Shown: one piece after another, positions 3,520 through 64,000 of the stretch
Layout of the letters: every line of letters starts with the position of its first letter
Numbering within the stretch: position 1 is the stretch's first letter
From: Asterias amurensis
Taxonomy: Eukaryota; Echinodermata; Asteroidea; Forcipulatida; Asteriidae
NCBI RefSeq assembly: GCF_032118995.1
Contig: NC_092649.1
Span: 27,525,927-27,589,926, forward strand
Direction of reading: 5' to 3'
DNA: 64,000 nucleotides
Notes under the pieces: model-generated
Database searches by the model: none
Told to the model about the DNA's origin: nothing
Seen by the model: the letters and a program-made list of their open reading frames with translations, nothing else
Position numbers and translations under genes: made by a program

Positions 3520-5229
3520 TTTTGCAAAATTCCAAACACGCGGTTTATGTTTATTCTCGACAACAGAGGGCGCTAAACCTCCAGTTATTTATTTCATCGT
3601 GTCGCCCCGCCCCCCCCCCCCCCAACGTCTCTTTTAATAAACAAACCGCACTGGTTTTTAACCAAATCCAATATTATCTGATTATCTGCAAACTTTCAAC
3701 TTGAGTAAACAAAATTAACGTTTGAGCTACCTCCATGCTCTTTGCTACAACCAATCTGGTTTTGGTCTGCATTTATGGCTTTCCATAGTTTTTCAACCTG
3801 TGGGGGGGGGGGGGGGGCAAGCAGTGGGTGAAGAAAAAGGAAGGCTCAATTAAAGCCATTTGATAAACAATGTCTGTGCATCCAAACTGGTTATTGGGTC
3901 CAGGATCAGAAAAAACAATTCAATTATTTCTAAATTTTAATGCTCAGACGGAACACTTTGTGCATTTTTTGTTGTAATTTAGCGATAACAATAGTGTGTA
4001 ATAATAAGGCCAAGTTGCAGAGTTACGATGTCTCTTTTTCCTTTTCTTTTTTTACATTTTGTACATATTTTTTATTTTATTTTATTTATTTGTTAGTTAT
4101 TTATTTATTTTTTAATTATTCTTTTTTTTTTTTGGGGGGGGGGAATGGGAGGGGTTTTGGGGACGCTCGGGGTCAGGTGGCAACTGGTTTTGGGTTCCAT
4201 GAACTGCAAAATGTTCCTTTAACCTGATTAGGTCCTTTTTTAAGCCATGGCTTCAGCTTAAGGTCTGTTTTTGGGCTCCGGCATTGGTGCCATTGAATAT
4301 GTATTCAGACAGGTCCAAATTCTAACAAAAACTATGTACTAAAATTGCAAGGAATACAAGAAGTTTATTTACATATTCACAGTTTATCAAAAATGTTATA
4401 AATCTGACACCCTTCACTAGTATTTTAAGACTTTACATAAACATATTTGTTATGAGAATTAATAACCGTATTTAGCGCTTTGTATCAATTCGAAAATTAA
4501 AAGGCGCTTATTATTATTATTATTTTTAAACTATGTGAGGGTTCATTGCTTAACCTTTAACAACACAAATAATCCAGACTACAAGTTTGTTGGATGCAGT
4601 ACCATACCATTGACCTAAACCAGACAGGTTGACTAACCACATGGTTTAACTACCCATATGGTTCAATGTTTGAACAAAGAGGGAGGCTGTGTATTGGGAG
4701 AGTTGTGAGACCTTACAGAAGACATTCTTTGGTCCAATGTACGCATACAGGGTGCCAGACTGGACTGTACATAGCTTTGTGCTACCTTTGGACTGAAAAA
4801 TGGCGTCCATCAAATCCTAGAGCAACTTCGAGTGTGCACCACGGTTAACTAAAGGTTGACCATTTGCACTCGAACCCCAGGCTGGTCAATCATTGGTTGA
4901 CTACATTTTGAACCAGCCCCATGAGCATGGTTTCTTCCGTGGTCCCAATGGCTTGTTCCATGCTTACATGTGTCAAGTGCAAAGGGGAACCAGTGACACT
5001 ATAGCGAAAGTGACTGGGCTTCCAAACCAGTCGTTTGAGTTTCAATGCTGGTCAGTAGTCGACTAAAATGTGCACCCTCGAACTTGCTCCAAGCTTACAC
5101 TACCTACATGGTTGAACTTACCAAACTATTATTTTATGAACACCTGACCGTGACATAAACAACAGCTAAATGCCAGTCACAAGCAATGAAAATGGCATGA
5201 AATTTTGGCCAGTTAACAGGCAGTGACAT
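3520..5229. other. gene-free stretch with C- and G-homopolymers
   Basis: Contains a poly-C run near 3607-3624, poly-G runs near 3801-3818 and 4133-4142, and T-rich DNA. AAAGGCGCTTATTATT at about 4500 resembles the 3' tail shared by SINEs and LINEs in this window. No gene recognised. Confidence 0.5.
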
Positions 5230-5315
5230 GAGCTTTTCATAGCTGTGTTTTGATTGGTTAGGGTGATGTTGGTGCAATCACCTCGGACCAATCAAAACAC
5301 AGATATGGAAAGCTT
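5230..5315. repeat. 86-bp imperfect hairpin
   Basis: AGCTTTTCATAGCTGTGTTT on the left is matched in reverse complement on the right (AAGCTTTCCATATCTGTGTT), and both arms continue into TGATTGGT. The arms are about 38 bp with a very short loop. It looks like a small palindromic MITE just downstream of INTS13. Confidence 0.75.
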
Positions 5316-5842
5316 ACTTTTGGTCATCTGCATGCTGTGTCCACGTGTGTATTATTGATACAAAACACAATAACGTACATGCACGTGCAAATACTTGCGT
5401 GCATGTACTTGCATGTAATGTTGGTGTAAAATTTGACTGCGAAGTCAATGTATGTGAAGTCAATGTAGGTGAAAGTTGAAGATACACGACAGCTGGAGGC
5501 CAGTCTCTGGCGTTATTCATGAGCCTCGAAGTTTGACCTCAGATGTTCAGGGTAGTGTGAAATAAGCATGCTATTTTCGAGCTTAAGCACAATTTGTGCT
5601 TAAGCAGCTCAAGGAAATTGGCCCCTGGTGCTTCTGGTACACAAAGTAAGCACCCTTGTTTCCTCAGGCTTGCAGGCTAGAGAGTTTTAAGTTTACTTAT
5701 GAGGCATCCTTCGTTTCATAACCAGAAGTATAAAATAAAACAATACCCTAAATCTGTCAAGTTGGACATGTTGAGTTAAGTCTCTCCCTTCACGTTAAAT
5801 AAAAACCAGTCTTCAGGGTTCAGTCTTCGAGGATGTTCCGTG

Positions 5843-38744: not shown

Positions 38745-38885
38745 CTCCATATCCTTGGCCCCAGTACATTTGATATCAAATTCTTTTGCCTTTAAATAAA
38801 AAAGATTGATCTGCAACGATCTGCATCATGAAACTACCGATCAAATGCTTCTGCAGTTGTAGATAGCCCTACGCCTGGATTTGTT
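38745..38885 (-). repeat. inverted counterpart of 45525-45690
   Basis: GATCTGCAACGATCTGCATC, ATGAAACTACCGATCAAATG and GTAGATAGCCCTACGCC recur in reverse complement at 45525-45690 and again in the second tandem block at 52315-52480. It is a dispersed repeat or one end of a larger unit; it immediately precedes the LINE fragment. Confidence 0.75.
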
Positions 38886-38908
38886 CAAAAAAACATCACG
38901 CGTTATTA

Positions 38909-39470
38909 AGCCTGGACGATTATTGCAACAGTCTTCTAATTGGAATCAACCAAAAACTCAAAAGGAGGCTAAATAACGTGCAACGAACAGCTGCCAGACT
39001 CATCACAAAGAAACGCAAGTTCGACTCTATCACCCCGGAACTCATCACACTTCACTGGCTCCCAATCCAACAAAGGATCGACTTCAAGGTCATCGTTCTC
39101 ATGTTCAAGGCCTTACATCAACAAGTCCCTCATTACATCATAGACATTCTGCAAGTTGGTGCTGAACGGAGACTCCTTCGGTCAAACAGCTCCTGTTCAC
39201 CATACTATGTAGTTCCAAGAACAAGTCACATCACTTTTGTCGATAGAGCCTTCTCGGTATATGGACCCAAACTCTGGAATAAACTTCCCAATCACATCAG
39301 GGACACAACATCACTCAACACATTCAAGGCACTTCTGAAAGCCCACTTGTTTCAGGAGGCCTACCATCAATGACTTTTTATTTCTTCTGTGCCTCAGCGC
39401 CTTTGAGCAAACTTTTGATTTAGGCGCTATACAAATTACGTTTGATTGATTGATTGATTGATTGATTAGG
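38909..39470 (+). mobile_element. LINE 3' fragment (CR1/L2/jockey-like), reverse transcriptase C-terminus
   Basis: An open frame ending at 39373 encodes the typical C-terminal region of a non-LTR reverse transcriptase: LDDYCNSLL, VQRTAARLITKKRKFD, ITLHWLPIQQRIDFKV, VPRTSHITF, FSVYGPKLWNKLP. It ends soon after FKALLKAHLF, as such elements do. The 3' tail AGGCGCTATACAAATTACG is followed by a (TTGA)n microsatellite (about 39449-39468). Everything upstream of the last ~155 codons is missing, the usual 5' truncation. The left breakpoint of the tandem duplication (39303) lies inside this frame. Confidence 0.88.
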
Positions 39471-40495
39471 ATGTTGAAAACAACAATGCCGATATGGATG
39501 TTGGTTTTGAAATCATCAAAATATTCTTTTTTTCAAAGACTGTACAATATTCCAGGATACGTTATTTTAAAACCACCTTTGCGTCTTTTCCAAAGAATTT
39601 CTAATAATCTGACAGGTAATTCAAGATTTGTTTGAGCGCAACCCACTTAGGCCTTAACCCATACACTTTGTATCTACGTCTTCACATCTAGACATGATGG
39701 TCTCTCTTTAGGCAGTGCCGTTCTTGAAATGTTTATGTGCTGTGTGAATATATATGACGTCAGCCTAATGTTTCTTAAAGCGCTGCCATTAGAAAGATGT
39801 TAATAAATCCATCACCTCGATCCCATGGTTATTATGCTAACTTTATTATTTACGAACTGAGTGTTGCCGTGGCCACTCGTGAGTGCGAAGCTTTAGGGGA
39901 CATTCCCTTGGCCAGAAATCACCACTTTGTCGGGAAATGTCGGATTATGGTCGGACACACAGAAAATACAGGTCAAACTACTTGCCCTCATCTGGCTTTC
40001 AACTCACTTGGGTTGGTAGTTGGTACCACCACTTACAATCATCACCTCCATTAATACATTTAAAATCCACAAAAGAGGCCATACAAAATTGTTAAAACCT
40101 GTTTCATAATCTTATCCTTGTTTTAGCTACTGGTAAACTTGGTTTTACAGTTTCAGATTCATACTAACCCTGGACGATAGCGAAAATTTTTACTGGCGAT
40201 ATATTGTCCGATACATGACGAATTATCGTGAATTTTTTTTTAAACGGAAACCCCAGGCACGGGCCCCGACTTCTCATGATCAACAGGCAAAGAATCGTGG
40301 ATGTCAGACACTTCGTACCTTAGCCACTTCGTACCCTGGACACTCCGTAACTTCGGGACACTTCGTACCGTAACCAAATTGGTCACTTCGTACTCTTGGT
40401 TGGGTATGAAGTGACCATCAGCTGAGTCACTTTGTACATTTATAAAAATGTGGGCTCCTCAATAAGGTAATGTTCGTTGAGATACAAATTAATTA

Positions 40496-40821
40496 GGGAA
40501 TAACAGTGCGAGTACCCGGTCTTCACTGCGTGGTAATGACCGGGTTTGGTGGCTGGCGCTGTTAACGGACCGAGCCAGCCACCAACCAAGGCATAGTGTT
40601 AGCCAGAGGGGTGTCTGGGTGTCTTTTGGACACCCTGTTTTTAATTTGGACACCCTGTTTCATCTGTCATTTACATGTAAATTTATTGTAGGTGAACAAT
40701 TTGGACACCCAGTTTTAAAATTTCCAGCAAATTTGGACACCCTTTTACCAAATCCTGGCTAAAACCTTGAACCAAGGTCATTACCACGCAGTGAAGACCG
40801 GGTACGAACACTGTTATTCCC
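40496..40821. mobile_element. nested MITE, 326 bp, possible 8-bp target duplication
   Basis: GGGAATAACAGTGCGAGTAC at the left mirrors GTACGAACACTGTTATTCCC at the right, and both arms continue to GGTCTTCACTGCGTGGTAAT. Flanks ATTAATTA and ATTAATAA differ at one site, which would fit an 8-bp hAT-like duplication, though AT-richness makes this weak. The middle holds four ATTTGGACACCC repeats. Second copy at 47286-47611. Confidence 0.75.
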
Positions 40822-40984
40822 ATTAATAAATACCTTTTTTAGCGAATTAAATGGCTAAAATTGTCAAAATTTTGTGACTTTTCTCTCGGCGGTACTTCCA
40901 GACATGTTCAGGGGCCATATTTGAACTTTTGATCGTTCCCATCTCTTTAGTGCGTTAACCACATTACTGATCTTTGAGACCAGT

Positions 40985-41260
40985 GACTCTTTTAAATAAT
41001 GATCTGTTCAGCGCCTTCACTGGGGTCAAAGGAGGCAAATGATTGGACGATAGCTGTTCCTTGTGCATTAAAACGCGCGCATGAGCTCGGCGTCAGTTTA
41101 TACGCGCGCACATGTTACAGGCGCGCACTCAAAATTGATACATTTTCAGCGCGTGTACGCGTAAGTGCGCGAAGTTGCAATGAAACTAACCAGGATATAA
41201 ATAAGCGTGCGATAACAGTGCAACGCGCAAGGTTTACACAATGTATGCTGATTTAGTGGC
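40985..41260. other. CGCGC-rich segment inside the foldback element
   Basis: AACGCGCGCATGAGC, ACGCGCGCACATG and AGCGCGTGTACGCG contrast with the AT-rich flanks. It is the interior of the mobile element and no gene is visible. It recurs at 47775-48050. Confidence 0.5.
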
Positions 41261-42258
41261 CACTTTTTCGCTATTTTCCAAAGCCGGTCTTTATACCACC
41301 GTTAACACTCTCACACGTGACCGGGTTTTGACCAATCAGAGACTTGAAACCGTCCAAGGTATTTATTAATAATATTTAACAATTAAAATTTGTGTTTGAA
41401 TTCTTATGTGAATGTCCTTTCTGTCCTTTTTAATGTGAATTTAATATATTGAATAAGAATGGAGGTCAATTACCGCCACAGACATCATCTTCCACCCATA
41501 TCTTTTACAGATATTTTAAATGCAAACAATCATGCAATCGTCAAAATGGCTCCTTGGTCCCAACAAAATAGTAATAATTGGTTTGATTTGCTTTTACTTC
41601 ATAATCATCCTGTCACAAAGCACAAAATAGTCATAAGCGATGCAGAAATCCAAATGAAGTACCAAGGTAGGAAGTGTCTCGTGAGAAGGTACAAAGTGTC
41701 TTGTAAAGAAGGTATGAGTGTCCAAGGTACGAAGTGTCCAAAGTCACTTCGTCACTTCGTACCTTGAAAAAGTATGAAGTATGAAGTGTCCAGGGTACAA
41801 AAGTGGCAAAGGTATGAAATGTCCTGACTCCAGGCACGTTAATGTAATTTTTGTACACGCCTTTTTTGGACAGGCAATTCTGCACAAAAGTCATCCATCA
41901 TCATTTGGTAAGCCCTGTCATGTTTCAAATTCCATAAATGTAAGGAATAAAATGAAGTATGTTGGGAGTATAGGACTTTTCTAATTGTAAGAAATTTGCA
42001 ATCAAACTTGTACCACGCATAGCGACCATTAACTTGGCGTTTTTACTTTTATTATGCATGTATTGAAGGTGGGCTGTAATTTAATGTATGCAGATTGCGA
42101 CTGTGATGAGACCGTTGCGATGTTAATTTTTTTAAAGATGTTAAAAAAAAGAGCCATTGATGATTTACACTTAGGCCTACTTAGTAAATTACAGCTCAAC
42201 AAGGACAAGGTGGGCTACTCACTGTACTCTGGTCTGTAGGACCGACAGAAAGGAGACC

Positions 42259-43524
42259 AGACAACTCGTCCGTCGGACAACTCGTCCGTGCGAACAACTC
42301 AACGGTTCAGACAACTCGACGGTTCGGACAACTCCACGGATGATTTATTCAACCATCAGACAACTCGATTTGGGACCAAGACAAGGTGACGGATGACCTA
42401 GTCGGGAGGAGGGTTGGCCGTGACTGTTGGTGGCTCAGCACGGGGCAGGAGGGGGAGTCATTTTTAGTCATTATTATACACAAAGTGTCCTGGGGACATA
42501 GTTGAACAGATGTTTCTTCAACGTATGGCTTCACTGGGACACCACCACATTTTCTTGTGATTAATAAAAGATAAATTTTATAAATACAGTGATAAACTAT
42601 AGAATCGCAGGATTAATAATACAGGAAAATTTGTGTAAACATGACACAGTTACGGAGGTCAACCGCTCAACCGTCGACTTGTCTTGGCCAACCGTCAAGT
42701 AGTTGCGATAACGTAACCCTCCTCCCGACGCCCGCCAGGCCGGAGGGTTACGAGTCTGTTTTGAGCGGAAACGGTTGATCTGGTCCAACACGTACAATTT
42801 TGACAGCTAGTCACCAGATTTGCCCCATTTTTACCACTTTCAAAAATCATGACACAAATTCTGAGGGTACGAACTTAATCCGCAATGTCTAATGCAACCT
42901 GCCATAATACTCAAAACAAAACGTGTAGTTTGTGGCAATGCGTAGGGTGCATTGTGTAGCCCGGCAACTGTGCACACATGTACATGCGGTAATAATGCAC
43001 TGTACATGATTGTACGTACAGTACTGTACACCAAGTATGTATGTGAACATGTACAGGTACATGTACTGTTGAACTACACGTCACACACGTAGAGCCGAAG
43101 CTCCGCCCCACGCAGGTTCGACATTTGAACCTGTGAATTTCGCTCCGGTTCTGGTAAGTTTTTGTCCATTTTTCTTCGAAATATTTCCTCAATGGTGTTT
43201 TGTTTTGAGGATTATGGCAGGCTGCATTAGACATTGCGGATTAAGTTCGTACCCTCAGAATTTGTGTCATGATTTTTGAAAGTGGTAAAAATGGGGCAAA
43301 TCTGGTGACTAGCTGTCAAAATTGTACGTGTTGGACCAGATCAACCGTTTCCGCTCGAAACAGACTCGTAACCCTCCGGCCTGGGCGGCCGTCGGGAGGA
43401 GGGTTACGTTATTGCAACTAACCGTCAAGCTGTCTCAAAAAGTTGAGTTGTCCGAACCGTCGAGTTGTCTGAACCGTCGAGTTGTCCGAAGTGACGAGTT
43501 GTCCGATGGACGAGTTGTCCGACA
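42259..43524. mobile_element. 1.27-kb foldback element with ACAACTCGTCCG terminal arrays
   Basis: Both ends are tandem arrays of CGGACAACTCGACGGTT-like units, inverted relative to each other. Inner arms of about 222 bp (42701-42922 and 43197-43418) are nearly perfect inverted repeats, running from GATAACGTAACCCTCCTCCC to GCCATAATACTCAAAACAAA. Between the left array and left arm is about 350 bp of other sequence. No transposase frame. Second copy at 49049-50314. Confidence 0.88.
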
Positions 43525-43608
43525 TTCGATATTCGACAGAAACAGTGTTTAGACTTAGTCAGTTAGATTAGAAATAGAATAGATAGATGAAGTGGGCATG
43601 TGACTCAC

Positions 43609-43763
43609 GTGAGGGAAGAGTTTGTACCCAGCACCAATTCTACCTCCATGCCAGCACCAAGCCCATTCTCCCCCTCGGACCAGACGGCACCGTGACACTG
43701 CATTGTCCGTCACACTTTGTCTGTATGAGGAATGAGTGTGACACCGAATACCCGTGACACCAC
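43609..43763 (-). other. possible exon or leader exon, copy 1
   Basis: On the minus strand a TTGTAG acceptor and a strong donor (CCTCAC then GTGAGT) bound 155 bp. The frame starting GVTGIRCHTHSSYRQSVTDN is open throughout. No match to a known family. It could be a non-coding leader of RAB7, an exon of an unknown gene, or chance. It recurs unchanged at 50399-50553. Confidence 0.25.
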
Positions 43764-43949
43764 CTACAACACAACACTGAATGATCCATACGTAACATAC
43801 CCACTTCCGACTACGCTAAAATGACTTACAAACAATCTAAATAAGGTTGTCTGATTGTCACAGTCATGAATAAAGCCAATGAAAACCATGCCTACCTTAT
43901 AATTACCAAGAATTGTTTAATATCAACCACTTTTCTTTGATAATTGCAC

Positions 43950-44240
43950 ACTTTTCTCTTCTTTCCACGCCTCCTCTGCTGATGTTTAGTCGGAATAAAT
44001 ACTGCATACGTTAAAAAGGAATACAGGTCACGGGACCATTTCATTCAGCTGGTACTACACTAGCGCACTGTTAAACATCGACGGGGCTAGCGTGCACCAG
44101 CGAGCGAACCCGACGTCATCGTAAGCTACTTTCACGTGAGATTTTGCGTGATTACGTTATTGACAAACTTTTCTCTGACGACGCCACTACAAAAGTAGTG
44201 TCGCAATAGAAAAAGACCGTCCATTTGCAATCATTAAACA
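43950..44240. promoter_or_regulatory. possible CpG-rich promoter segment, copy 1
   Basis: Carries GACGTCA, CACGTGAG, GGTCACGGGACC, CGACGGGGCTAGCG and GCGAGCGAACCCGACG within AT-rich DNA. Vertebrate RAB7A is a TFEB (CLEAR-box) target and lies next downstream on the minus strand, but no transcript start can be proven here. Second copy at 50740-51030. Confidence 0.25.
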
Positions 44241-44753
44241 TTTTCTGAAAATCTGTTGTTGTTGTTATCGTAGTTAAGAGCTGATCTATTTGTCTTTCTA
44301 GTTTTAGTAGGAAGAAGTAAATATTGATTCGATTGATGACACAAAAAGTTTACACGGTGATGATCAAAGCGTAAAATTTACTTATTGCGCACACTTTATG
44401 CTCGCATTATAGGCTACACTGAATTATTATAGTATTACCCCCGTTGACCAATTGTATTGGCTTGCAAGCCACTAGGCATGCAGGGCCCGTTTGTAATGGT
44501 TTTGTTGAATATTCAACATCAGGGGCGGATCGATCCAGGATTTTTTTTATTCCCCCCCCCCCAGAATGAAAGAGCACGCAAAGCCTGAACATCTGACGTC
44601 ACACTTCGAGGTTTGCGGATAAAACTAGGCACGCCAGGCAGTATTTTATTTGTCTGCACTATGAAATTGCCACTGCCGTCAATGGGATTTTTTTTTTTTT
44701 GACCGTAATTTTGTTACAGTTATTCTTAAGTGCAGTGATCAATACAACAGACC

Positions 44754-45218
44754 GCCGGTGTCGCATGCAATTATGTCCCCTATGCAATACTATCCGGGGG
44801 ACATTATTGCATATGCAATAACGTTCGCCGGACGGTTTTGCATATGCAATCGTGTCCGCCCGGACGCTGTTGCAAAATGCAATTGTGTCCGGCCGGATAC
44901 ATTTGCATATGCAGTTGTTTCCGCCCGTGCAAAACCGTCCTTGCATGCAGTACATTAAACGCCCTTGGTCGACGAAACACGTTCGCCATTTTTTCTACAA
45001 TCTAAGTGCATGTTGCGAATGACATGGGAAATATTCGGCCGTTGGGTATTCGCTGCAATACATGAATATGCATACTGCATATACATTGATTCAATGTGCA
45101 GTCATCCATGTACATGTCCGCCGGATGATTTTTGCATAGCCCCGGTCACGATTGCATATGCAAAAGTGTCCGGAGCGGACAGTATTGCATGGCGGACACA
45201 ATTGCATTTGACACCGGC
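44754..45218. mobile_element. TTGCATATGCAA palindrome element, copy 1 (465 bp)
   Basis: Terminal inverted repeats: GCCGGTGTCGCATGCAATTA and, read inward from the right, GCCGGTGTCAAATGCAATTG, both continuing TGTCC. Inside, TTGCATATGCAA palindromes alternate with GTCCGCC/GGCGGAC blocks on a period of about 32-35 bp. Two ends of such arrays flank a plain middle of about 150 bp. No coding potential. Confidence 0.85.
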
Positions 45219-45524
45219 CATTTTGATTTCGCTTTGGTGACAAAAAAAATAGTTTTCAATCGAATAAGCCTGAATGAGTGAACATTCTTGTGTGTATTTG
45301 AATAAAGCAGAGTTACGCTGTCTTGATTATGGATGAATGCCGAGTCAGGAGGGAAAACACAAATTTTATTGGAGATACCTGCCGTGAATGTCTTGTTTTT
45401 CCCTAGCCCCCTAAACTGGTCCTTTGGCCCCATCACCTTTGATATAGCATTCTTCCGCTTTTGAGAAAGTTCCCTCTCAAAAATCATTTGATTTTTACCC
45501 AAAACGTGTGATTTCCCCCCTTTT

Positions 45525-45690
45525 CTAAATCAAGGCGTAGGGCTATCTACAACTTCAGAAGCATTAGATCAGTAGGTTTCATGATGCAGATCGTTGCGGA
45601 TCGTTTTTTCTCCTTAAAAAAAAAACCAAACAAAAACAAAAAATGAAATAATTTTGTATCAAAGGTGCGAGGGCCAAGGATGGGTGGATT
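45525..45690 (+). repeat. dispersed repeat, inverse of 38745-38885
   Basis: AAGGCGTAGGGCTATCTACA, GGTTTCATGATGCAGATCGT and GGGCCAAGGATGG match the left-hand copy in reverse complement, with an extra A-rich run. It recurs at 52315-52480 in the second block. Confidence 0.75.
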
Positions 45691-45994
45691 GGACCAGTAT
45701 TTTGAGGCTAGTGTCCCCCTGTCTGCTGACCCTGCAGGTCGGTGGTGATCAATGTTTTGCACAATATTGTGGTATCAAAATACTTGCTTTTTTGACAAAA
45801 AAAATACACAGGCACGTAATATACTTTGTGGGGCACCCTTCCTTCCTCCATGCAAACACCAACGATGTGTGGGGTTTTCTTTTGTTAGTTTTTCAGTTTT
45901 GTGTGGGGGCCGTGGAGTGGAGAAGTGACGCAGATAATTATTTACTTGTATTATTTGATTTACTTAAAAGTCTGGACATCAATGATGTATTGCC

Positions 45995-46088
45995 TCATGT
46001 ACGTCTCTGATACCAGTCGATAATCCCAGCATCATTTAAGGCGTCCATCAACTCGATCTCCTTCGCTAGATCGTGCACAGACGTAGCT
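45995..46088 (-). pseudogene. truncated terminal exon of the sialyltransferase (duplication remnant)
   Basis: Copy 1 of the tandem block retains the last 30 codons and the stop of the sialyltransferase terminal exon (from [10 protein letters not shown] to WYQRRT). It is cut off at the duplication boundary after the base that ends Val344. It lacks motif S, a splice acceptor and all upstream exons, so it cannot encode an enzyme. Confidence 0.9.
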
Positions 46089-47089
46089 CAACACACAACA
46101 TCACTCAACACATTCAAGGCACTTCTGAAAGCCCACTTGTTTCAGGAGGCCTACCATCAATGACTTTTTATTTCTTCTGTGCCTCAGCGCCTTTGAGCAA
46201 ACTTTTGATTTAGGCGCTATACAAATTACGTTTGATTGATTGATTGATTGATTGATTAGGATGTTGAAAACAACAATGCCGATATGGATGTTGGTTTTGA
46301 AATCATCAAAATATTCTTTTTTTCAAAGACTGTACAATATTCCAGGATACGTTATTTTAAAACCACCTTTGCGTCTTTTCCAAAGAATTTCTAATAATCT
46401 GACAGGTAATTCAAGATTTGTTTGAGCGCAACCCACTTAGGCCTTAACCCATACACTTTGTATCTACGTCTTCACATCTAGACATGATGGTCTCTCTTTA
46501 GGCAGTGCCGTTCTTGAAATGTTTATGTGCTGTGTGAATATATATGACGTCAGCCTAATGTTTCTTAAAGCGCTGCCATTAGAAAGATGTTAATAAATCC
46601 ATCACCTCGATCCCATGGTTATTATGCTAACTTTATTATTTACGAACTGAGTGTTGCCGTGGCCACTCGTGAGTGCGAAGCTTTAGGGGACATTCCCTTG
46701 GCCAGAAATCACCACTTTGTCGGGAAATGTCGGATTATGGTCGGACACACAGAAAATACAGGTCAAACTACTTGCCCTCATCTGGCTTTCAACTCACTTG
46801 GGTTGGTAGTTGGTACCACCACTTACAATCATCACCTCCATTAATACATTTAAAATCCACAAAAGAGGCCATACAAAATTGTTAAAACCTGTTTCATAAT
46901 CTTATCCTTGTTTTAGCTACTGGTAAACTTGGTTTTACAGTTTCAGATTCATACTAACCCTGGACGATAGCGAAAATTTTTACTGGCGATATATTGTCCG
47001 ATACATGACGAATTATCGTGAATTTTTTTTTAAACGGAAACCCCAGGCACGGGCCCCGACTTCTCATGATCAACAGGCAAAGAATCGTG

Positions 47090-48620
47090 GATGTCAGACA
47101 CTTCGTACCTTAGCCACTTCGTACCCTGGACACTCCGTAACTTCGGGACACTTCGTACCGTAACCAAATTGGTCACTTCGTACTCTTGGTTGGGTATGAA
47201 GTGACCATCAGCTGAGTCACTTTGTACATTTATAAAAATGTGGGCTCCTCAATAAGGTAATGTTCGTTGAGATACAAATTAATTAGGGAATAACAGTGCG
47301 AGTACCCGGTCTTCACTGCGTGGTAATGACCGGGTTTGGTGGCTGGCGCTGTTAACGGACCGAGCCAGCCACCAACCAAGGCATAGTGTTAGCCAGAGGG
47401 GTGTCTGGGTGTCTTTTGGACACCCTGTTTTTAATTTGGACACCCTGTTTCATCTGTCATTTACATGTAAATTTATTGTAGGTGAACAATTTGGACACCC
47501 AGTTTTAAAATTTCCAGCAAATTTGGACACCCTTTTACCAAATCCTGGCTAAAACCTTGAACCAAGGTCATTACCACGCAGTGAAGACCGGGTACGAACA
47601 CTGTTATTCCCATTAATAAATACCTTTTTTAGCGAATTAAATGGCTAAAATTGTCAAAATTTTGTGACTTTTCTCTCGGCGGTACTTCCAGACATGTTCA
47701 GGGGCCATATTTGAACTTTTGATCGTTCCCATCTCTTTAGTGCGTTAACCACATTACTGATCTTTGAGACCAGTGACTCTTTTAAATAATGATCTGTTCA
47801 GCGCCTTCACTGGGGTCAAAGGAGGCAAATGATTGGACGATAGCTGTTCCTTGTGCATTAAAACGCGCGCATGAGCTCGGCGTCAGTTTATACGCGCGCA
47901 CATGTTACAGGCGCGCACTCAAAATTGATACATTTTCAGCGCGTGTACGCGTAAGTGCGCGAAGTTGCAATGAAACTAACCAGGATATAAATAAGCGTGC
48001 GATAACAGTGCAACGCGCAAGGTTTACACAATGTATGCTGATTTAGTGGCCACTTTTTCGCTATTTTCCAAAGCCGGTCTTTATACCACCGTTAACACTC
48101 TCACACGTGACCGGGTTTTGACCAATCAGAGACTTGAAACCGTCCAAGGTATTTATTAATAATATTTAACAATTAAAATTTGTGTTTGAATTCTTATGTG
48201 AATGTCCTTTCTGTCCTTTTTAATGTGAATTTAATATATTGAATAAGAATGGAGGTCAATTACCGCCACAGACATCATCTTCCACCCATATCTTTTACAG
48301 ATATTTTAAATGCAAACAATCATGCAATCGTCAAAATGGCTCCTTGGTCCCAACAAAATAGTAATAATTGGTTTGATTTGCTTTTACTTCATAATCATCC
48401 TGTCACAAAGCACAAAATAGTCATAAGCGATGCAGAAATCCAAATGAAGTACCAAGGTAGGAAGTGTCTCGTGAGAAGGTACAAAGTGTCTTGTAAAGAA
48501 GGTATGAGTGTCCAAGGTACGAAGTGTCCAAAGTCACTTCGTCACTTCGTACCTTGAAAAAGTATGAAGTATGAAGTGTCCAGGGTACAAAAGTGGCAAA
48601 GGTATGAAATGTCCTGACTC
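47090..48620. mobile_element. CACTTCGTACC foldback element, second copy
   Basis: Duplicate of 40300-41830 by the segmental duplication rather than by a new insertion; it includes the nested MITE at 47286-47611. Confidence 0.8.
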
Positions 48621-49048
48621 CAGGCACGTTAATGTAATTTTTGTACACGCCTTTTTTGGACAGGCAATTCTGCACAAAAGTCATCCATCATCATTTGGTA
48701 AGCCCTGTCATGTTTCAAATTCCATAAATGTAAGGAATAAAATGAAGTATGTTGGGAGTATAGGACTTTTCTAATTGTAAGAAATTTGCAATCAAACTTG
48801 TACCACGCATAGCGACCATTAACTTGGCGTTTTTACTTTTATTATGCATGTATTGAAGGTGGGCTGTAATTTAATGTATGCAGATTGCGACTGTGATGAG
48901 ACCGTTGCGATGTTAATTTTTTTAAAGATGTTAAAAAAAAGAGCCATTGATGATTTACACTTAGGCCTACTTAGTAAATTACAGCTCAACAAGGACAAGG
49001 TGGGCTACTCACTGTACTCTGGTCTGTAGGACCGACAGAAAGGAGACC

Positions 49049-50314
49049 AGACAACTCGTCCGTCGGACAACTCGTCCGTGCGAACAACTCAACGGTTCAG
49101 ACAACTCGACGGTTCGGACAACTCCACGGATGATTTATTCAACCATCAGACAACTCGATTTGGGACCAAGACAAGGTGACGGATGACCTAGTCGGGAGGA
49201 GGGTTGGCCGTGACTGTTGGTGGCTCAGCACGGGGCAGGAGGGGGAGTCATTTTTAGTCATTATTATACACAAAGTGTCCTGGGGACATAGTTGAACAGA
49301 TGTTTCTTCAACGTATGGCTTCACTGGGACACCACCACATTTTCTTGTGATTAATAAAAGATAAATTTTATAAATACAGTGATAAACTATAGAATCGCAG
49401 GATTAATAATACAGGAAAATTTGTGTAAACATGACACAGTTACGGAGGTCAACCGCTCAACCGTCGACTTGTCTTGGCCAACCGTCAAGTAGTTGCGATA
49501 ACGTAACCCTCCTCCCGACGCCCGCCAGGCCGGAGGGTTACGAGTCTGTTTTGAGCGGAAACGGTTGATCTGGTCCAACACGTACAATTTTGACAGCTAG
49601 TCACCAGATTTGCCCCATTTTTACCACTTTCAAAAATCATGACACAAATTCTGAGGGTACGAACTTAATCCGCAATGTCTAATGCAACCTGCCATAATAC
49701 TCAAAACAAAACGTGTAGTTTGTGGCAATGCGTAGGGTGCATTGTGTAGCCCGGCAACTGTGCACACATGTACATGCGGTAATAATGCACTGTACATGAT
49801 TGTACGTACAGTACTGTACACCAAGTATGTATGTGAACATGTACAGGTACATGTACTGTTGAACTACACGTCACACACGTAGAGCCGAAGCTCCGCCCCA
49901 CGCAGGTTCGACATTTGAACCTGTGAATTTCGCTCCGGTTCTGGTAAGTTTTTGTCCATTTTTCTTCGAAATATTTCCTCAATGGTGTTTTGTTTTGAGG
50001 ATTATGGCAGGCTGCATTAGACATTGCGGATTAAGTTCGTACCCTCAGAATTTGTGTCATGATTTTTGAAAGTGGTAAAAATGGGGCAAATCTGGTGACT
50101 AGCTGTCAAAATTGTACGTGTTGGACCAGATCAACCGTTTCCGCTCGAAACAGACTCGTAACCCTCCGGCCTGGGCGGCCGTCGGGAGGAGGGTTACGTT
50201 ATTGCAACTAACCGTCAAGCTGTCTCAAAAAGTTGAGTTGTCCGAACCGTCGAGTTGTCTGAACCGTCGAGTTGTCCGAAGTGACGAGTTGTCCGATGGA
50301 CGAGTTGTCCGACA
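49049..50314. mobile_element. ACAACTCGTCCG foldback element, second copy
   Basis: Duplicate of 42259-43524, carried along by the segmental duplication. Inner arms at about 49491-49712 and 49987-50208. Confidence 0.88.
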
Positions 50315-50398
50315 TTCGATATTCGACAGAAACAGTGTTTAGACTTAGTCAGTTAGATTAGAAATAGAATAGATAGATGAAGTGGGCATGTGACTCAC

Positions 50399-50553
50399 GT
50401 GAGGGAAGAGTTTGTACCCAGCACCAATTCTACCTCCATGCCAGCACCAAGCCCATTCTCCCCCTCGGACCAGACGGCACCGTGACACTGCATTGTCCGT
50501 CACACTTTGTCTGTATGAGGAATGAGTGTGACACCGAATACCCGTGACACCAC
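50399..50553 (-). other. possible exon or leader exon, copy 2
   Basis: Unchanged copy of 43609-43763 with the same acceptor and donor. Confidence 0.2.
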
Positions 50554-51543
50554 CTACAACACAACACTGAATGATCCATACGTAACATACCCACTTCCGA
50601 CTACGCTAAAATGACTTACAAACAATCTAAATAAGGTTGTCTGATTGTCACAGTCATGAATAAAGCCAATGAAAACCATGCCTACCTTATAATTACCAAG
50701 AATTGTTTAATATCAACCACTTTTCTTTGATAATTGCACACTTTTCTCTTCTTTCCACGCCTCCTCTGCTGATGTTTAGTCGGAATAAATACTGCATACG
50801 TTAAAAAGGAATACAGGTCACGGGACCATTTCATTCAGCTGGTACTACACTAGCGCACTGTTAAACATCGACGGGGCTAGCGTGCACCAGCGAGCGAACC
50901 CGACGTCATCGTAAGCTACTTTCACGTGAGATTTTGCGTGATTACGTTATTGACAAACTTTTCTCTGACGACGCCACTACAAAAGTAGTGTCGCAATAGA
51001 AAAAGACCGTCCATTTGCAATCATTAAACATTTTCTGAAAATCTGTTGTTGTTGTTATCGTAGTTAAGAGCTGATCTATTTGTCTTTCTAGTTTTAGTAG
51101 GAAGAAGTAAATATTGATTCGATTGATGACACAAAAAGTTTACACGGTGATGATCAAAGCGTAAAATTTACTTATTGCGCACACTTTATGCTCGCATTAT
51201 AGGCTACACTGAATTATTATAGTATTACCCCCGTTGACCAATTGTATTGGCTTGCAAGCCACTAGGCATGCAGGGCCCGTTTGTAATGGTTTTGTTGAAT
51301 ATTCAACATCAGGGGCGGATCGATCCAGGATTTTTTTTATTCCCCCCCCCCCAGAATGAAAGAGCACGCAAAGCCTGAACATCTGACGTCACACTTCGAG
51401 GTTTGCGGATAAAACTAGGCACGCCAGGCAGTATTTTATTTGTCTGCACTATGAAATTGCCACTGCCGTCAATGGGATTTTTTTTTTTTTGACCGTAATT
51501 TTGTTACAGTTATTCTTAAGTGCAGTGATCAATACAACAGACC

Positions 51544-52008
51544 GCCGGTGTCGCATGCAATTATGTCCCCTATGCAATACTATCCGGGGGACATTATTGC
51601 ATATGCAATAACGTTCGCCGGACGGTTTTGCATATGCAATCGTGTCCGCCCGGACGCTGTTGCAAAATGCAATTGTGTCCGGCCGGATACATTTGCATAT
51701 GCAGTTGTTTCCGCCCGTGCAAAACCGTCCTTGCATGCAGTACATTAAACGCCCTTGGTCGACGAAACACGTTCGCCATTTTTTCTACAATCTAAGTGCA
51801 TGTTGCGAATGACATGGGAAATATTCGGCCGTTGGGTATTCGCTGCAATACATGAATATGCATACTGCATATACATTGATTCAATGTGCAGTCATCCATG
51901 TACATGTCCGCCGGATGATTTTTGCATAGCCCCGGTCACGATTGCATATGCAAAAGTGTCCGGAGCGGACAGTATTGCATGGCGGACACAATTGCATTTG
52001 ACACCGGC
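51544..52008. mobile_element. TTGCATATGCAA palindrome element, copy 2
   Basis: Identical to 44754-45218 through the segmental duplication. Confidence 0.85.
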
Positions 52009-52784
52009 CATTTTGATTTCGCTTTGGTGACAAAAAAAATAGTTTTCAATCGAATAAGCCTGAATGAGTGAACATTCTTGTGTGTATTTGAATAAAGCAG
52101 AGTTACGCTGTCTTGATTATGGATGAATGCCGAGTCAGGAGGGAAAACACAAATTTTATTGGAGATACCTGCCGTGAATGTCTTGTTTTTCCCTAGCCCC
52201 CTAAACTGGTCCTTTGGCCCCATCACCTTTGATATAGCATTCTTCCGCTTTTGAGAAAGTTCCCTCTCAAAAATCATTTGATTTTTACCCAAAACGTGTG
52301 ATTTCCCCCCTTTTCTAAATCAAGGCGTAGGGCTATCTACAACTTCAGAAGCATTAGATCAGTAGGTTTCATGATGCAGATCGTTGCGGATCGTTTTTTC
52401 TCCTTAAAAAAAAAACCAAACAAAAACAAAAAATGAAATAATTTTGTATCAAAGGTGCGAGGGCCAAGGATGGGTGGATTGGACCAGTATTTTGAGGCTA
52501 GTGTCCCCCTGTCTGCTGACCCTGCAGGTCGGTGGTGATCAATGTTTTGCACAATATTGTGGTATCAAAATACTTGCTTTTTTGACAAAAAAAATACACA
52601 GGCACGTAATATACTTTGTGGGGCACCCTTCCTTCCTCCATGCAAACACCAACGATGTGTGGGGTTTTCTTTTGTTAGTTTTTCAGTTTTGTGTGGGGGC
52701 CGTGGAGTGGAGAAGTGACGCAGATAATTATTTACTTGTATTATTTGATTTACTTAAAAGTCTGGACATCAATGATGTATTGCC

Positions 52785-55700
52785 TCATGTACGTCTCTGA
52801 TACCAGTCGATAATCCCAGCATCATTTAAGGCGTCCATCAACTCGATCTCCTTCGCTAGATCGTGCACAGACGTAGCTACGTGAGGCCGTTGGTAGTCCG
52901 CATCGTAGTAGTAAACCGAGTACATCAGCTGATAACCCATACCGAAGACTTGTACTCTGTCACAGCCTGCGTGCAATGCAGTGAACAGCATCAGGGCGCC
53001 GGTGCTCGGACGGTAGAAGCTCGATAACTCAGAATTCCCCATCCAACTAATATAATGTGAAAAGCAGAGTAAAGTGTTGTTTCACCGACACGAGTCAAAC
53101 TTAGAGAGTGTGACCGTAAGCGGCTTGTATATAAGTGTAATTTCCAAAGTTTTGCGAATTGGGCATGTCTTCAAACGGGAATTTAATGCTCATCGAGTCT
53201 CTGATAAGTTGCATCGGGGATAGAATATTCATTTGGGTTTTATACCTCTAAACTAAGATGTATGTTAGCACTGTATACTCGGTACTTTCATGGTAGTTTC
53301 CCGATCGATCTGCACAGTCAAATCTTGTTTTCCAAAGTCACTATAAAATCCAAGATGGCCGCTTTCCCCATGCCCTGACTAACAGAACCAATGGCGAGCG
53401 TTCCCACCCAGGTCAAAGTAAAGATCGACATCCTCTGAATTTTATACTTCCAAAAGTTCCCACACTGTTAATGATTTTAAAAAGAAGAAGAACATTTAAT
53501 TCCGTATTATTTTGTGCAGACACATTCTTCTAGAGTTACTGGAATTCATGCACACAATGAACGTAATTTAGAGGCGATCCTCCAGCTATTGTGTTAATAA
53601 CGCATTGTGTCCGACGTGGACTACACGCTATTTTTTCAACCATTGTATCCATCCGCATTGTGTCCAGAGTCCTAGAGCAAAGAGCATGGTTCTTACATTC
53701 TTTGGACGTATCTGATGAAATCTGGATGTAAGATCCGCACGTCTGTTGCACTGGCATGTATCTTGGGTTCCCAGCCATTCACAACTCTTTTGATGTACAC
53801 GTAGTCGTTATGACGACACGGTATGAATACGTACTTAATCCCCTTTGTATCAAAATAAGAAAAGGGGAAAAGTCATGGATAGTGAAGGGGCTTCTTACTA
53901 TAAAACACAATCCGTCACTCATTGACGCTCACAAGGTGCTTTAACTACTATTTTCCTGCAAGATATGTGGAACTACGTTTGAACTATGAGTCCTATTCAT
54001 GTATTTTCTTTTACAAAGCACAATTTAAAGCCATTGGACCCTTTCGGTTCAGAAAAAAAAAAGTTCACAGATTTACAAATAACTTACAGGGTTTACAGAA
54101 GGCAATGGTGAAAGACTTCTCTTGAAATATTTGTCAATGAAATGCTTTACTTTTTGAGAAAACAGCAAAACAATATAAATTCTCGTTAACGAGAATTACG
54201 GATTTATTTTTAACACATGTCATGAAACGGCTAAACGCGTGGAAACAAGGGTGGAGTTTTCCGTTGTTTTCTCCCGACTCCGATGACCGATTGAGCCTAA
54301 ATTTTCACAGGTTTGTTATTAATTTGATATAAAAGTTGTGGTACACAAAGTGTGGGCCTTGGACAACACTGTTTACCGAAAGGGTCCAATGGCTTTAAAT
54401 GGTTTATAGTGTGTGCTGTGGCGCAATATGCCGCCAATCAAACCAGGGGCACCGGTGTCGCCGGCAATTATGTCCTCTATATGCATTACATACCATGCGG
54501 AGGACATTATTGCATATGCAATAATGTCCGCCGGAACGTTTTGCATATGCAATCGTGTCCGCCCGGACGCTGCTGCATAATGCAATTGTGTCCGCCAAGG
54601 CACATTTGCATATGCAATTGTGTCCGCCCCGTGCAAAACCGTCCTTGCAGTAAATTAAACGTACGCAATTTTTTACAAGCTAAAGTACATGTCATTAATG
54701 ACATGGGAAATGTTCGGCCGTTGGGTATTAGCTGCAATCATAAAATACGTGAATATTCATGCTCCATATTATATTTATACGTCGTCACTTCAGTGCATGC
54801 ACGCTCGCGCCTGGAGGTAGCCAGTCGCGCGCACATACATGTACATGTCCGCCAGACGCCTTTTTGCATAGCCCCGGAAATGATTGCATATGCAAAAGTG
54901 TCCGGAGCGGACAGTATTGCATGGCGGACACAATTGCATCTGACACTGGGCAAACACTTTCCTTTGCCAGTGCACTGGTTATTACACGTGCGTTATACAC
55001 AACACACGGGACCAACAGCTTTACGTCCCATCCATCCAAGGACGAATCATCCTTAAAGTGTGTTGCTTTAAATACACGGGTGTCAAGACTCTCGAACCCA
55101 CACTCTGCTGATGATCAGAAACACCAGAGTTCGAATCCAGTGCTCTTAACCGCTAGGCCACGACACGCCAAATAGCTATACCATGGAGGCAGCTAATAGC
55201 CGACAGTGGCGGAGGGTTTCCCCAAATGATCAAACACTACTTGTAACACACTTGTTTTCTTATCGTACAGAAGACAGGCCTACCCGCCTGAAATCCCCTA
55301 TAAAGATTTCCTGAGACTCCCATCCAAGAACACAATGAAGACACAATAGGTATACACCATGCTTTATACTAAAGTCATGGAGGAATTCTTCCTCCATGCT
55401 TTAGTCAAGCACCGTGACTTTTTTATGGAGGGTCAATTTGTGTATCTTTGGCTTTAGCTTCACGCGGCGGCGGCACCCCCAGATGTCACGCTGCATATAG
55501 TCTTTATTCGTGCATGATGTCTGGGGTCGTGCTTGATATCTGGGGGTGCCGCATGCGCCTTGACTAAAGGCTATCCTCAGCTCCCGCCCGTCATCTCCGA
55601 GGCCAGTGCAAATTTTGGAGATGTAGACGAAATTGTGCCAATGGTCACTATCCTACTCTAAAAAATACTGACAAAAACAAACCCAAACACCCGCACCACA

Positions 55701-58642
55701 ACAACAACAGCACAAACAGCTTAGCAGTAGGAGCAGCACGAGAACGAGAATACACAACAATTCAGCAGTAGCAGCAACAGTAGTACATAACATCAACAAC
55801 GAGGGCGAGAACGAACAACTACACAACATCAACAATACATTGTTGTTAATAATCATACTCAAAATGACCTTAATTTTGAAACTACTCTTTTGACGTTTTT
55901 GAAGGATTACGGCTGCCACCTCCCGCGACCATTTTGTGAAGAATCCGTAAATTTACTAGATATTTTCACTCATTTTGTAGAAAATTAAAAAGTCTTTCCT
56001 ACAAAACCTACTTTATCTGTTGGAACATCTCTCTTGTCCATGTTTTGTAAAGACCTGTCGTAGAAGAAGTAGTGGGTGGTTCGATTCCCAACATCAACTT
56101 CGTGGCCTCTACGAATGGCATTGTTCAACCTATCAAAATAATGTGCACTCGTTATTATAATCATTCAATCAACGTGAACAATTTGTATTGATTTTCAACA
56201 TAAAAAAGCCAGCTAAATGCTGTTCGGCAGTTTGTCAGAATTACTGTCCATCAGAGAGGCATTATTCAACATCAAATAATTTGCTCATGAAGACGTGCAG
56301 AGTATACGCTTCCAAATGTCGAGATCAAACCGGCTCAAAGCAAACACTCCCGCAAAAGAGATGATTTACACACCCGCAAGTTTACTATATTTCTGTATAG
56401 TTTCTTCATACAGAGAGGATTTGATGTCTCTGCTTACCTGAAAACCATATGATGGTCATCGATTTCCCTGCCTCTTGCCGAGCCGTTTAAGATCCCTCCA
56501 TTTCCGACTACTGCGCAGCGAATGCACGACGGGCGGAACTCACCGTCCGGAAACTCAAAAATGGATTCGGGGGCGGGAAACAAACTTAAGATTCGAGCCA
56601 AATCTGCAACACCCACGCGGAAAAATGGAAGGGATCAAAATGGTATTTCATTATAAATATTTGCAAAAAATAGTTAATGGCCTGACGTTTCGACCCTAGC
56701 AGAGTCTTTCTCTTTTAGCCTTCGAGAAAGACTCTGCCAGGGTCGAAACGTCAGGCCATTAACTATTTTTTGCATTTATACTCTCGGTCCATTTGGTTGG
56801 TAAGTTGTTTGCAACAGCTAATTCTATTTTCTCAAAAATATTTGTGTTCACTATATAGTTGTTGGTACAGTGAATATTGGGCCACCGCCCTTTATGATGG
56901 ACCCCCACAGTTAACAGCCTCCAATTGAACTGCCACAGTTCCCAATTGAGCGGCCTTATAGAAACAACAAACGTGAAGCACCCTTTACCGTCATAGGAAA
57001 GGGATGGTCTCATCTTGAGGCCATACGGGATCGAAAACCTTTGGAGTCTTCTGTACTCTGACTGGTCCACAAGTTCTTCACTCATTAGCATCTGAATCTC
57101 CGGGTGATATTTTCCCGCTAATGTCCAATCGGCATCTTTCATCTTCAGCTGAAGGGATAACGGGCATGTCTGAAAAAGGGGTAATAACTTCACTTATTTC
57201 TTTGTCAAAGTATTAGACTAATGATACTTGGAGCCAATTAACATTCATTTGAATTTGTAGACACTGGACACGTTTCGTAATAGTTACTCAAATAGCATAA
57301 ACACTTACATGGTAAACGAGCAACGGAAAGCTGTTGATAATACAAAACATCATGAGAATCACTAAAATATGTTAATCTTTAAAGGGCTTTAGGCCTGAAG
57401 CCTTTCTTAAGCATCTGAAAGCACACCAATTTGTGCATCGGGTATTTTTCCTTTCTTGCAACTCCGATGACCAAAATTGAGCACATTTTTCACAGAGTTG
57501 TTATTGTCGTATATAATCCATATTGGGATACAAAACTGATCTTGAAATCATCGTGTCCAGTGCCTAACAACAGAACAACGCGAGTTAACTACACAAACCG
57601 ATGTTCTGAAAGCTGGATTTGTTCTGAAGGTGTGGTCACGAAGTAGCTTGAGATTTCCCGGGTCTTCATTCGGTATAAGTATAGTTAAATAGTCCCCCCT
57701 TGTCGTTCTAGTGACTCCACTGGATTTGGAGAACAACTGAGGTGGTGTGGAAGGTGTGCTGAAATAAACAGTAGAAACAAAGGTTATTGAAATTTTGCAG
57801 TGTACTATACGGATTCCTATAGAGACCACAGCCTTATTTTCGAGAACCAGATACAGCAAATCGGACTATATAACCTGTATGTGGTGGATCGAGAATCATG
57901 AACGGCGGGGGGTGGGGTTGTTCACTTCAAGCTTCCGTATACTGGACTATTATTCAAGAAGTCTTGCTTTAACCGAAACTATTTTAGTTTACCTTTTTAA
58001 CAGCTGGATATTGTGGTCATTCAATCTGCTCAATCTCCTGCGTAAAAACAAAACATTTTAGGAGAATGTTCTAAATGATCACTGTTGTACCGTAAGTGAC
58101 AGAGAGTATCGATCCCTAATGTTACCAGTAGTACTTCATCATGTAGGCCTACAGAAGTAATCCTCTAAAGAATTCACGCAATAAAGAAACGGTGGGTTGG
58201 CGGTGGCGTGGGGGGCGGGGCGAGGGACGGTGACGCGCGGGACTTAACGAGCAGAACAATCCCAGGAAAGATAGCGCCAAATATATATTTTTTCAGTTTG
58301 TAGGATTCAATCATTCGGGTATGTTGGAACATGTATATACAAGTCTAGAAGGTAAAAGTTTTGTAGTTGTATCCGAGCAAGACTCCCCCAATTTGAACCA
58401 TTGAAGTACTCATTCGCCCGGAGATGAGATACAACTCTAAAATGCTCCGAGTTTTCCCGGCCAATTTTAAGCAAAATATGACTGACGACCAACACTGCCA
58501 GTTTCGAACTGGGGATGCTCAACATAGGCCTATACTATGATTGAACTTACCATGCATTCAACCGTGGGCCATAATAAACAACTGCAAGTGTAACGCACAA
58601 TACAATGACGAAGACTCCTTCAACACACTTTGAAGTCGTCAT
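52785..58642 (-). CDS. ST6GalNAc I/II-like alpha-2,6-sialyltransferase, complete, 7 exons
   Basis: Golgi type II membrane glycosyltransferase of family GT29, expected to move sialic acid from CMP-Neu5Ac to O-6 of GalNAc on O-glycoproteins. Exons: 58642-58551, 57758-57599, 57169-56989, 56603-56438, 56129-56012, 53842-53697, 53046-52785; 1,125 nt, 374 aa, the length of human ST6GALNAC2. Residues 1-8 are cytosolic and about 9-24 ([16 protein letters not shown]) form the signal anchor. Sialylmotif L starts near [16 protein letters not shown] (171-186) and runs to [10 protein letters not shown]. Motif S is [20 protein letters not shown] (298-317), motif III YYYD (333-336), motif VS HDLAKE (349-354). 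Cys316 and an L-motif Cys can form the family's conserved disulfide. The exon 2 donor (GTTTGT) is the weakest call. Acceptor specificity among ST6GalNAc enzymes cannot be read from sequence. Confidence 0.94.
54024..54400 (+). mobile_element. family B inverted-repeat element
   Basis: TTTAAAGCCATTGGACCCTT mirrored by AAGGGTCCAATGGCTTTAAA. It lies in intron 5 of the sialyltransferase, about 50 bp from the TTGCATATGCAA element. Confidence 0.88.
54449..54951. mobile_element. TTGCATATGCAA palindrome element, diverged third copy
   Basis: Independent insertion of the same family as 44754-45218: ends ACCGGTGTCGCCGGCAATTA and, read inward, GCCCAGTGTCAGATGCAATT. The TTGCATATGCAA and GTCCGCC blocks are kept in the same order, with scattered substitutions and a changed middle. 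A 234-codon open frame across it is a by-product of the repeats. It lies in sialyltransferase intron 5. Confidence 0.85.
55080..55180 (-). mobile_element. tRNA-derived SINE head
   Basis: On the minus strand GTGGCCTAGCGGTTAAGAGC is an A-box region and GTGTGGGTTCGAGAGTC a B-box region, close to the copy at 16313. It lies in sialyltransferase intron 5. Confidence 0.7.
56651..56780. mobile_element. inverted pair of Penelope-like GTCGAAACGTC fragments
   Basis: Two copies of the fragment found at 6577 stand head to head, forming a 130-bp hairpin: AATGGCCTGACGTTTCGACC on the left and GGTCGAAACGTCAGGCCATT on the right, with AGAGAAAGACTCTGC-like inner arms. It lies in sialyltransferase intron 3. The class is inferred from the GAAAC-GTC box only. 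Confidence 0.6.
57255..57565 (-). mobile_element. family A element, strongly diverged
   Basis: GACACTGGACACGTTTCGTA and the inverse AATCATCGTGTCCAGTGCC mark the ends. GCATCTGAAAGCACACC and ACTCCGATGACC survive inside. This is the oldest-looking copy. Its right end reaches close to exon 2 of the sialyltransferase. Confidence 0.7.
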
Positions 58643-62432: not shown

Positions 62433-62945
62433 TATGGCTACGAGGGCCAATTGCGCTATAACCAACTGGTCTTAACAGCTCCAGCTATTATATCTTTAAC
62501 AGCCGTTTAATACCAGGTAGACATGGTCACGTGACCACCTTCCAACAAACAGGGCGGCTTAAACTGTGCTAATTAATGATCTGGTGGTTTATATGGCTAC
62601 GAGGGCCAGTTCCACTAAAACCAACTGGTCTTAACAGCTCCAGCTATTATATCTTTAACAGCCGTTTAATACCAGGTAGACATGGTCACGTGACCACCTT
62701 CCAACAAACAGGACGGCTTAAACTGTACTAATTAATGGTCTGGTGGTTTATATGGCTACGAGGGCCAATTCCACTATAACCAACTGGTCTTATATGTCTT
62801 TATCAGACGTGTAATACCAGGTAGACATGGTCACGTGACCACCTTCCGACAAATAGGACTGCTTATTAAAAAAACTGTATTAATTAATGATTTGGTGGTT
62901 TATATTCTTAAACTGTATTAATTAATGATCTGATGGTTTATATTC
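62433..62945. repeat. satellite-like tandem repeat, 159-bp unit
   Basis: Copies start at 62433, 62592 and 62751 with TATGGCTACGAGGGCCA; the third has lost about 20 bp and a partial fourth follows. Units 1 and 2 differ at only a few bases. Each full unit holds CAACTGGTCTTAACAGC and the perfect 12-bp palindrome GGTCACGTGACC (62525-62536, 62684-62695, 62829-62840). Confidence 0.95.
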
Positions 62946-63652: not shown

Positions 63653-63923
63653 TTAATGGAAGTAGCTGTAGATTCCACGCTTGTACCAGTCTATGGCGCC
63701 AATTCTATCTAGGCCTTTCAATATCTTCAACTCACTTTTCGTGTCGTGGCTAACCTTGTCCATTTTGAAGTGGCGGAATTTTTGGTCGTAATAGTACAAG
63801 GTAAAGTTGTCATTGTAGCCCATCCCGTAGATGCTGACCTTATCACAGCCGGAATGGAGAGCTGTGGAAAGCATGATGGTTCCTGTGGTGGGACGGAAGG
63901 ATCCCATTGGACTGTTCACCCAG
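63653..63923 (-). CDS. last exon of a second ST6GalNAc-like sialyltransferase (gene cut by window end)
   Basis: The acceptor (CTTTTGACAG) is followed by an 89-codon frame to a stop. It has the GT29 C-terminal motifs: motif S SFRPTTGTIMLSTALHSGCD, then VSIYGMGY, motif III YYYD, motif VS HDTKSE, and IDWYKRG near the end. It enters in the same phase (one base) at the same Trp codon as the last exon of the gene at 52785-58642, so the two are tandem paralogues. They clearly differ outside the motifs, so the gene duplication is old. Upstream exons lie beyond the window. Usual length suggests about 375 aa for the whole protein. Confidence 0.92.
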
Positions 63924-64000
63924 CTGTCAAAAGTTAACAAAAACATCATAATGTTATAGCGCCATCTATAGTGAGTGAAGGGTTCCCAACTTGGCACTTA

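Follow-up and report, generated by a model that had tools for sequence, protein, structure and literature searches.

Tandem duplications of polymerase theta type are known from helq-1 C. elegans, where, in the accessible part of the report (PMC8654963), they span ~100 bp to 10 kb and carry microhomology with occasional templated insertions. In wild-type worms, the same part of that report indicates, such duplications are rare, and microhomology marks their joints more than insertions do (PMC8654963). Adjacent copies may also be false: the heterotype and homotype assembly duplications described in the available sections of PMC9516828 lie side by side, one copy with a partial exon, whereas a true allele-specific tandem duplication in the same source comprises two copies on one contig without a gap and rested on haploid read depth. 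The locus described here, on scaffold C2 of Asterias amurensis, resembles the worm duplications in consisting of direct repeats of a size within ~100 bp to 10 kb, yet it is a single natural event and is large compared with the worm median of ~1 kb (PMC8654963, accessible part). It shares adjacent copies, one of them with a partial exon, with the false duplications, but unlike them has no gap, no allelic differences and a new 4-bp joint. With the allele-specific example it shares two copies on one gapless contig, although the starfish case is built on sequence alone. We consider it very probable that one tandem duplication, very young and closed by homology-free end joining, accounts for the locus.

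The window, that is, the whole 64,000-nucleotide stretch of DNA analysed (C2:27525927-27589926), holds copy A of the duplicated block at 39303-46088 and copy B at 46093-52878, each 6,786 bp long; positions below are those of the window, and a strand is given where one is assigned. The initial annotation had claimed that these two intervals match without difference in any stretch it compared and had advised a full base-by-base alignment for the exact identity. This comparison bore the claim out, with 6,786 of 6,786 bases equal and no indel. The identity ends exactly at the block limits and extends on neither side, and no other self-match in the window comes near the block in length, the runner-up comprising 527 aligned columns at 74.6%. 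Four stretches of the block (39303-40302, 40250-41800, 42200-43580 and 44900-46088; 5,068 of the 6,786 bases, the parts 41801-42199 and 43581-44899 lying outside) were searched against the genome of 491,506,623 bases in 23 contigs. Among the best 40 candidates per search, each stretch returned two full-length matches, namely copies A and B. The copies stand head to tail around a single new joint and between outer boundaries that look ancestral, which is the arrangement of a simple tandem duplication.

Repeats nested within repeats, also reported by the initial annotation, are indeed seen in the block. An element whose ends carry a 16-bp repeat in inverted arrays (40306-41741) holds a common inner element (~40770-41387) that is 94-97% identical to all 38 other places scored among the best 40 candidates. 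A second, whose terminal inverted arrays are built of a 17-bp repeat (42260-43522), holds the element at 42700-43420, whose 224-bp inverted arms agree at 97%. A repeat with 32-bp subrepeats (44754-45220) is related to 54452-54952 at 74.6%, and its right part (44900-45220) is 81-84% identical to all 38 other places scored among the best 40 candidates. The earlier description of these relatives as older and diverged stands for some matches, which go down to 70%, but not for the whole range, which reaches 100% with many matches at 93-100% (best 40 candidates per search). Five same-strand copies of the ~40770-41387 inner element lie at C4:5.37-5.94 Mb and all match from position 527, a common start that suggests a larger dispersed duplication. 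Elsewhere in the window, we observed a 159-bp unit in three tandem copies (62433-62905; matches at 87%) and a tRNA-Ser (cga) called by ARAGORN at 55077-55168 (-), either a gene or a repeat.

The left breakpoint, at 39303, falls within the 3' part of an element at 38917-39467 (+) that we take to be a LINE from the look of its protein; a Pfam search of the C-terminal piece gave no reverse-transcriptase match. This part is overlapped by an open reading frame (38867-39373) and ends in a (TTGA)n tail (39442-39467), and it is 97.6-100% identical over the aligned parts in the five copies compared (L004-L008). Its last 165 bp form the start of copy B (46093-46257, +), where the joint cuts the element off. 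Genome-wide, we found 19 occurrences of the exact 34-base pattern that begins at the breakpoint, and the upstream LINE sequence continues in 17 of these, copy A included; the occurrences lacking an exact continuation are copy B and C17:4680792. Outside the window, the LINE thus runs through the breakpoint site in 16 of 17 exact occurrences, which gives copy A a left edge of ancestral appearance. One further LINE copy (L004:1501-1664), outside the 17 counted occurrences since it is without the first base of the pattern, is 100% identical to block bases 2-165 and is 5'-truncated one base from the breakpoint, probably by coincidence. In view of this near-fit we considered 3' transduction by a LINE, or a hotspot of 5' truncation at 39303, and set both aside; 16 of the 17 outside occurrences cross the site, so that a hotspot finds no support.

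The right breakpoint, at 52878/52879, falls within a valine codon of an open frame at 52785-53081 (-), the last exon of a GT29 sialyltransferase gene (PF00777, 7.5e-15; stop at 52785-52787). The open frame runs for 98 codons and, at 41% identity (39/95), can be aligned across the breakpoint position to the last exon of a neighbouring paralogue (63653-63997, -), which itself matches the human-type ST6GalNAc2 chain 6apj_A at 3.7e-6. An ancestral state is likewise suggested for the right edge of copy B by the open exon and by the paralogue's alignment across the site. In copy A, by comparison, an exon remnant of 30 codons plus a stop is left (45995-46088, -), and this 30-codon piece searched alone against Pfam gave no family match. 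Two likely upstream exons of the same gene lie at 56434-56607 (-; PF00777 positions 28-84; C2:27582360-27582533; one TAA within the match) and at 56039-56155 (-; PF00777 positions 75-113; C2:27581965-27582081). PF00777 positions 114-188 have no listed match in this C2 gene, and we therefore speak of an intact last exon, not of an intact gene. The last exon remains whole because copy B still adjoins its upstream part, so the duplication would leave this exon unbroken and add, through copy A, a 30-codon exon fragment and repeats. A perfect 12-bp palindrome, ACGTAGCTACGT, spans 52871-52882 in the exon, with the right breakpoint 2 bp from its centre; this is a post hoc observation, and a distance of at most 3 bp from the centre of such a palindrome applies to 0.68% of the positions in the window. 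Genome-wide, we counted 88 exon-level PF00777 matches, some of them with internal stops; clusters of these matches lie on C16 (8.35-8.52 Mb), C13 (20.79-20.87 Mb) and C2.

Between the two copies, the only new joint carries a 4-bp filler, CAAC, at 46089-46092; genome-wide, a 25-base pattern across this joint has a single occurrence. Of the 117 self-matches listed, the 90 longest include none between the two breakpoints, and the joint shows no homology and contains a filler, so that homologous recombination between end repeats was rejected. With outer boundaries that look ancestral and only the inner joint new, the locus is built like a single tandem duplication sealed by end joining. The filler together with the two bases before it and the three after it reads CTCAACACA, which is also found 11 bp inside the block start. 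Such a 9-nt match was equalled in 32 of 2,000 simulations with random fillers and in 37 of 2,000 with random breakpoints, a figure (1.6-1.9%) that is weak and post hoc. The filler may have been templated from nearby, and our preferred reading is a short templated insertion of polymerase theta type, a pathway that a single joint may suggest but does not prove. On C14, matches to the POLQ-helical domain and to DNA polymerase A share a strand and are separated by ~12 kb; read regardless of introns, and with stops in two of the three helical matches, they indicate that the starfish probably has theta-type end-joining enzymes.

In the mechanism that we propose, the event would have started from a break or a failed strand-annealing intermediate. 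The right end of the block, in the sialyltransferase exon, would then have been joined to the left end, in the LINE, on the sister or homologous chromatid. End joining without homology would presumably have closed the joint, and the filler would be a short copy of sequence lying 11 bp inward of the left end, of the kind made by polymerase theta.

We examined whether the duplication could be an assembly error, in which two haplotypes, or the same reads twice, were laid in series. Suspicion is raised by the perfect identity and by a block roughly half as long as a read: the accessible part of the assembly report gives 11.15 Gb of HiFi reads (22.68x, mean 12.51 kb), assembled with hifiasm and purge_dups to a QV of 48.51 (PMC10625585). 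The heterozygosity of A. amurensis, according to the part of PMC11090083 available and measured in another individual, is 0.96%. At that level, ~65 differences would be expected between two haplotypes of the block and none was seen (Poisson probability ~5e-29), an expectation that presumes average local heterozygosity and the same level in the sequenced animal and that local homozygosity would weaken. Two haplotypes in series are very unlikely for this reason; false heterotype copies would differ at the heterozygosity level, whereas here 0 of 6,786 positions do. The window contains no N, and hence no assembly gap separates the copies; at QV 48.51, 0.19 assembly errors are expected in both copies together. 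The four filler bases are absent from both flanks and should stem from some read; because assemblers copy read sequence, they point to reads that contained the joint. At 13,576 bp the array exceeds the average HiFi read length, and the exact copy number therefore rests on overlaps. We consider an assembly error unlikely. Of the two origins that the initial annotation had left side by side, an assembly duplication of two haplotypes finds no support in these results, while a very recent segmental duplication is favoured by the exact identity, the one new joint and the ancestral-looking outer boundaries. The duplication looks real, recent and ordinary.

Perfect tandem copies of kilobase size are not everywhere in this genome, as indicated by a survey that gives no rate. 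In 60 kb of C12 (L053-L058; hits of at least 150 bp), no perfect repeat was listed; minisatellites came closest among the tandem repeats, with a 430-bp overlap at 98.8% as the largest. The 52 loci analysed (182,357 partly overlapping bases; L001, L002, L009 and L010 excluded as copies of the window) contained one perfect direct repeat of 963 bp (L049, with a part in L042). The other repeats in these loci were short-period arrays or aligned over less than 400 bp, including a perfect 278-bp overlap (L027, the same place as L044) and the long arrays of L030. Visual inspection showed that none of the strongest outside matches (38, 38 and 38 places plus 41 pieces) had an identical same-strand neighbour within 20 kb. 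The 963-bp repeat (L049:3181-4143 and 4838-5800; C16:8,402,181-8,404,800) has its copies 694 bp apart in a sialyltransferase cluster; each copy matches a sialyltransferase exon, with one TAA in the match, and the repeat appears to be a second very young duplication in such a cluster. In addition, L030:1-1066 is a long minisatellite of 10-bp period adjoining a sialyltransferase match in an open frame of 1,768 residues.

With no difference in 6,786 positions, the 95% upper bound on the divergence of the copies is 4.4e-4, or 4.6% of the reported heterozygosity. In the absence of gene conversion, the duplication would therefore be some twenty times or more younger than a typical allele pair. Zero differences also fit recent gene conversion, and an older tandem duplication could have been held identical by conversion or unequal exchange, as tandem copies readily convert; however, conversion tracts should leave unconverted edges, and here the identity reaches both very ends, so that we regard an older, converted pair as highly unlikely. 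Harder still to credit is a joint derived from an extrachromosomal circle or a chimeric molecule of the block that the assembler built into the chromosomal sequence: such a circle, of 6,790 bp, would carry exactly the observed joint, but circle reads would have to reach a depth comparable to that of the chromosomal reads in a 22.68x library, and we saw no independent sign of them. That the block is a mobile element inserted beside itself, as its richness in repeats and the short spacer might suggest, is barely credible, given that its ends are the interior of a LINE and the interior of an exon, that neither an inverted repeat between the ends nor a target-site duplication is visible by eye (flanks AGGG, CAAC and ACGT), and that the four stretches searched had no further full-length match among the best 40 candidates per search. 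The block was accordingly rejected as a transposon: terminal repeats and target-site duplication were sought by eye and same-ended copies elsewhere with the four stretches, and none was found.

A single, very young tandem duplication therefore remains our reading. A neutral variant so young is expected to segregate still, which makes a heterozygous carrier likely; the duplication is probably a segregating variant, perhaps heterozygous in the sequenced animal. A real duplication in the heterozygous state would give each assembled copy ~0.75 of the flank depth, with junction reads at about half depth. The initial annotation had proposed a read-depth test distinguishing normal from half depth, which does not foresee the 0.75 outcome; a third outcome needs to be added, as a duplication so young should often be heterozygous.

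For the sialyltransferase family, a further reading, which we hold to be rather unlikely, is that a gene array is growing here: a segregating duplication without a changed base would lie beside a sialyltransferase gene pair, its breakpoint near an exon palindrome, and the exon fragment might be expressed or act as donor sequence for conversion. Otherwise, the locus is one structural variant in one animal and not a new kind of element, and it offers a clean case in which a young, real duplication may be told from an assembly error by its ancestral edges, its new joint and an identity far above the allelic level.
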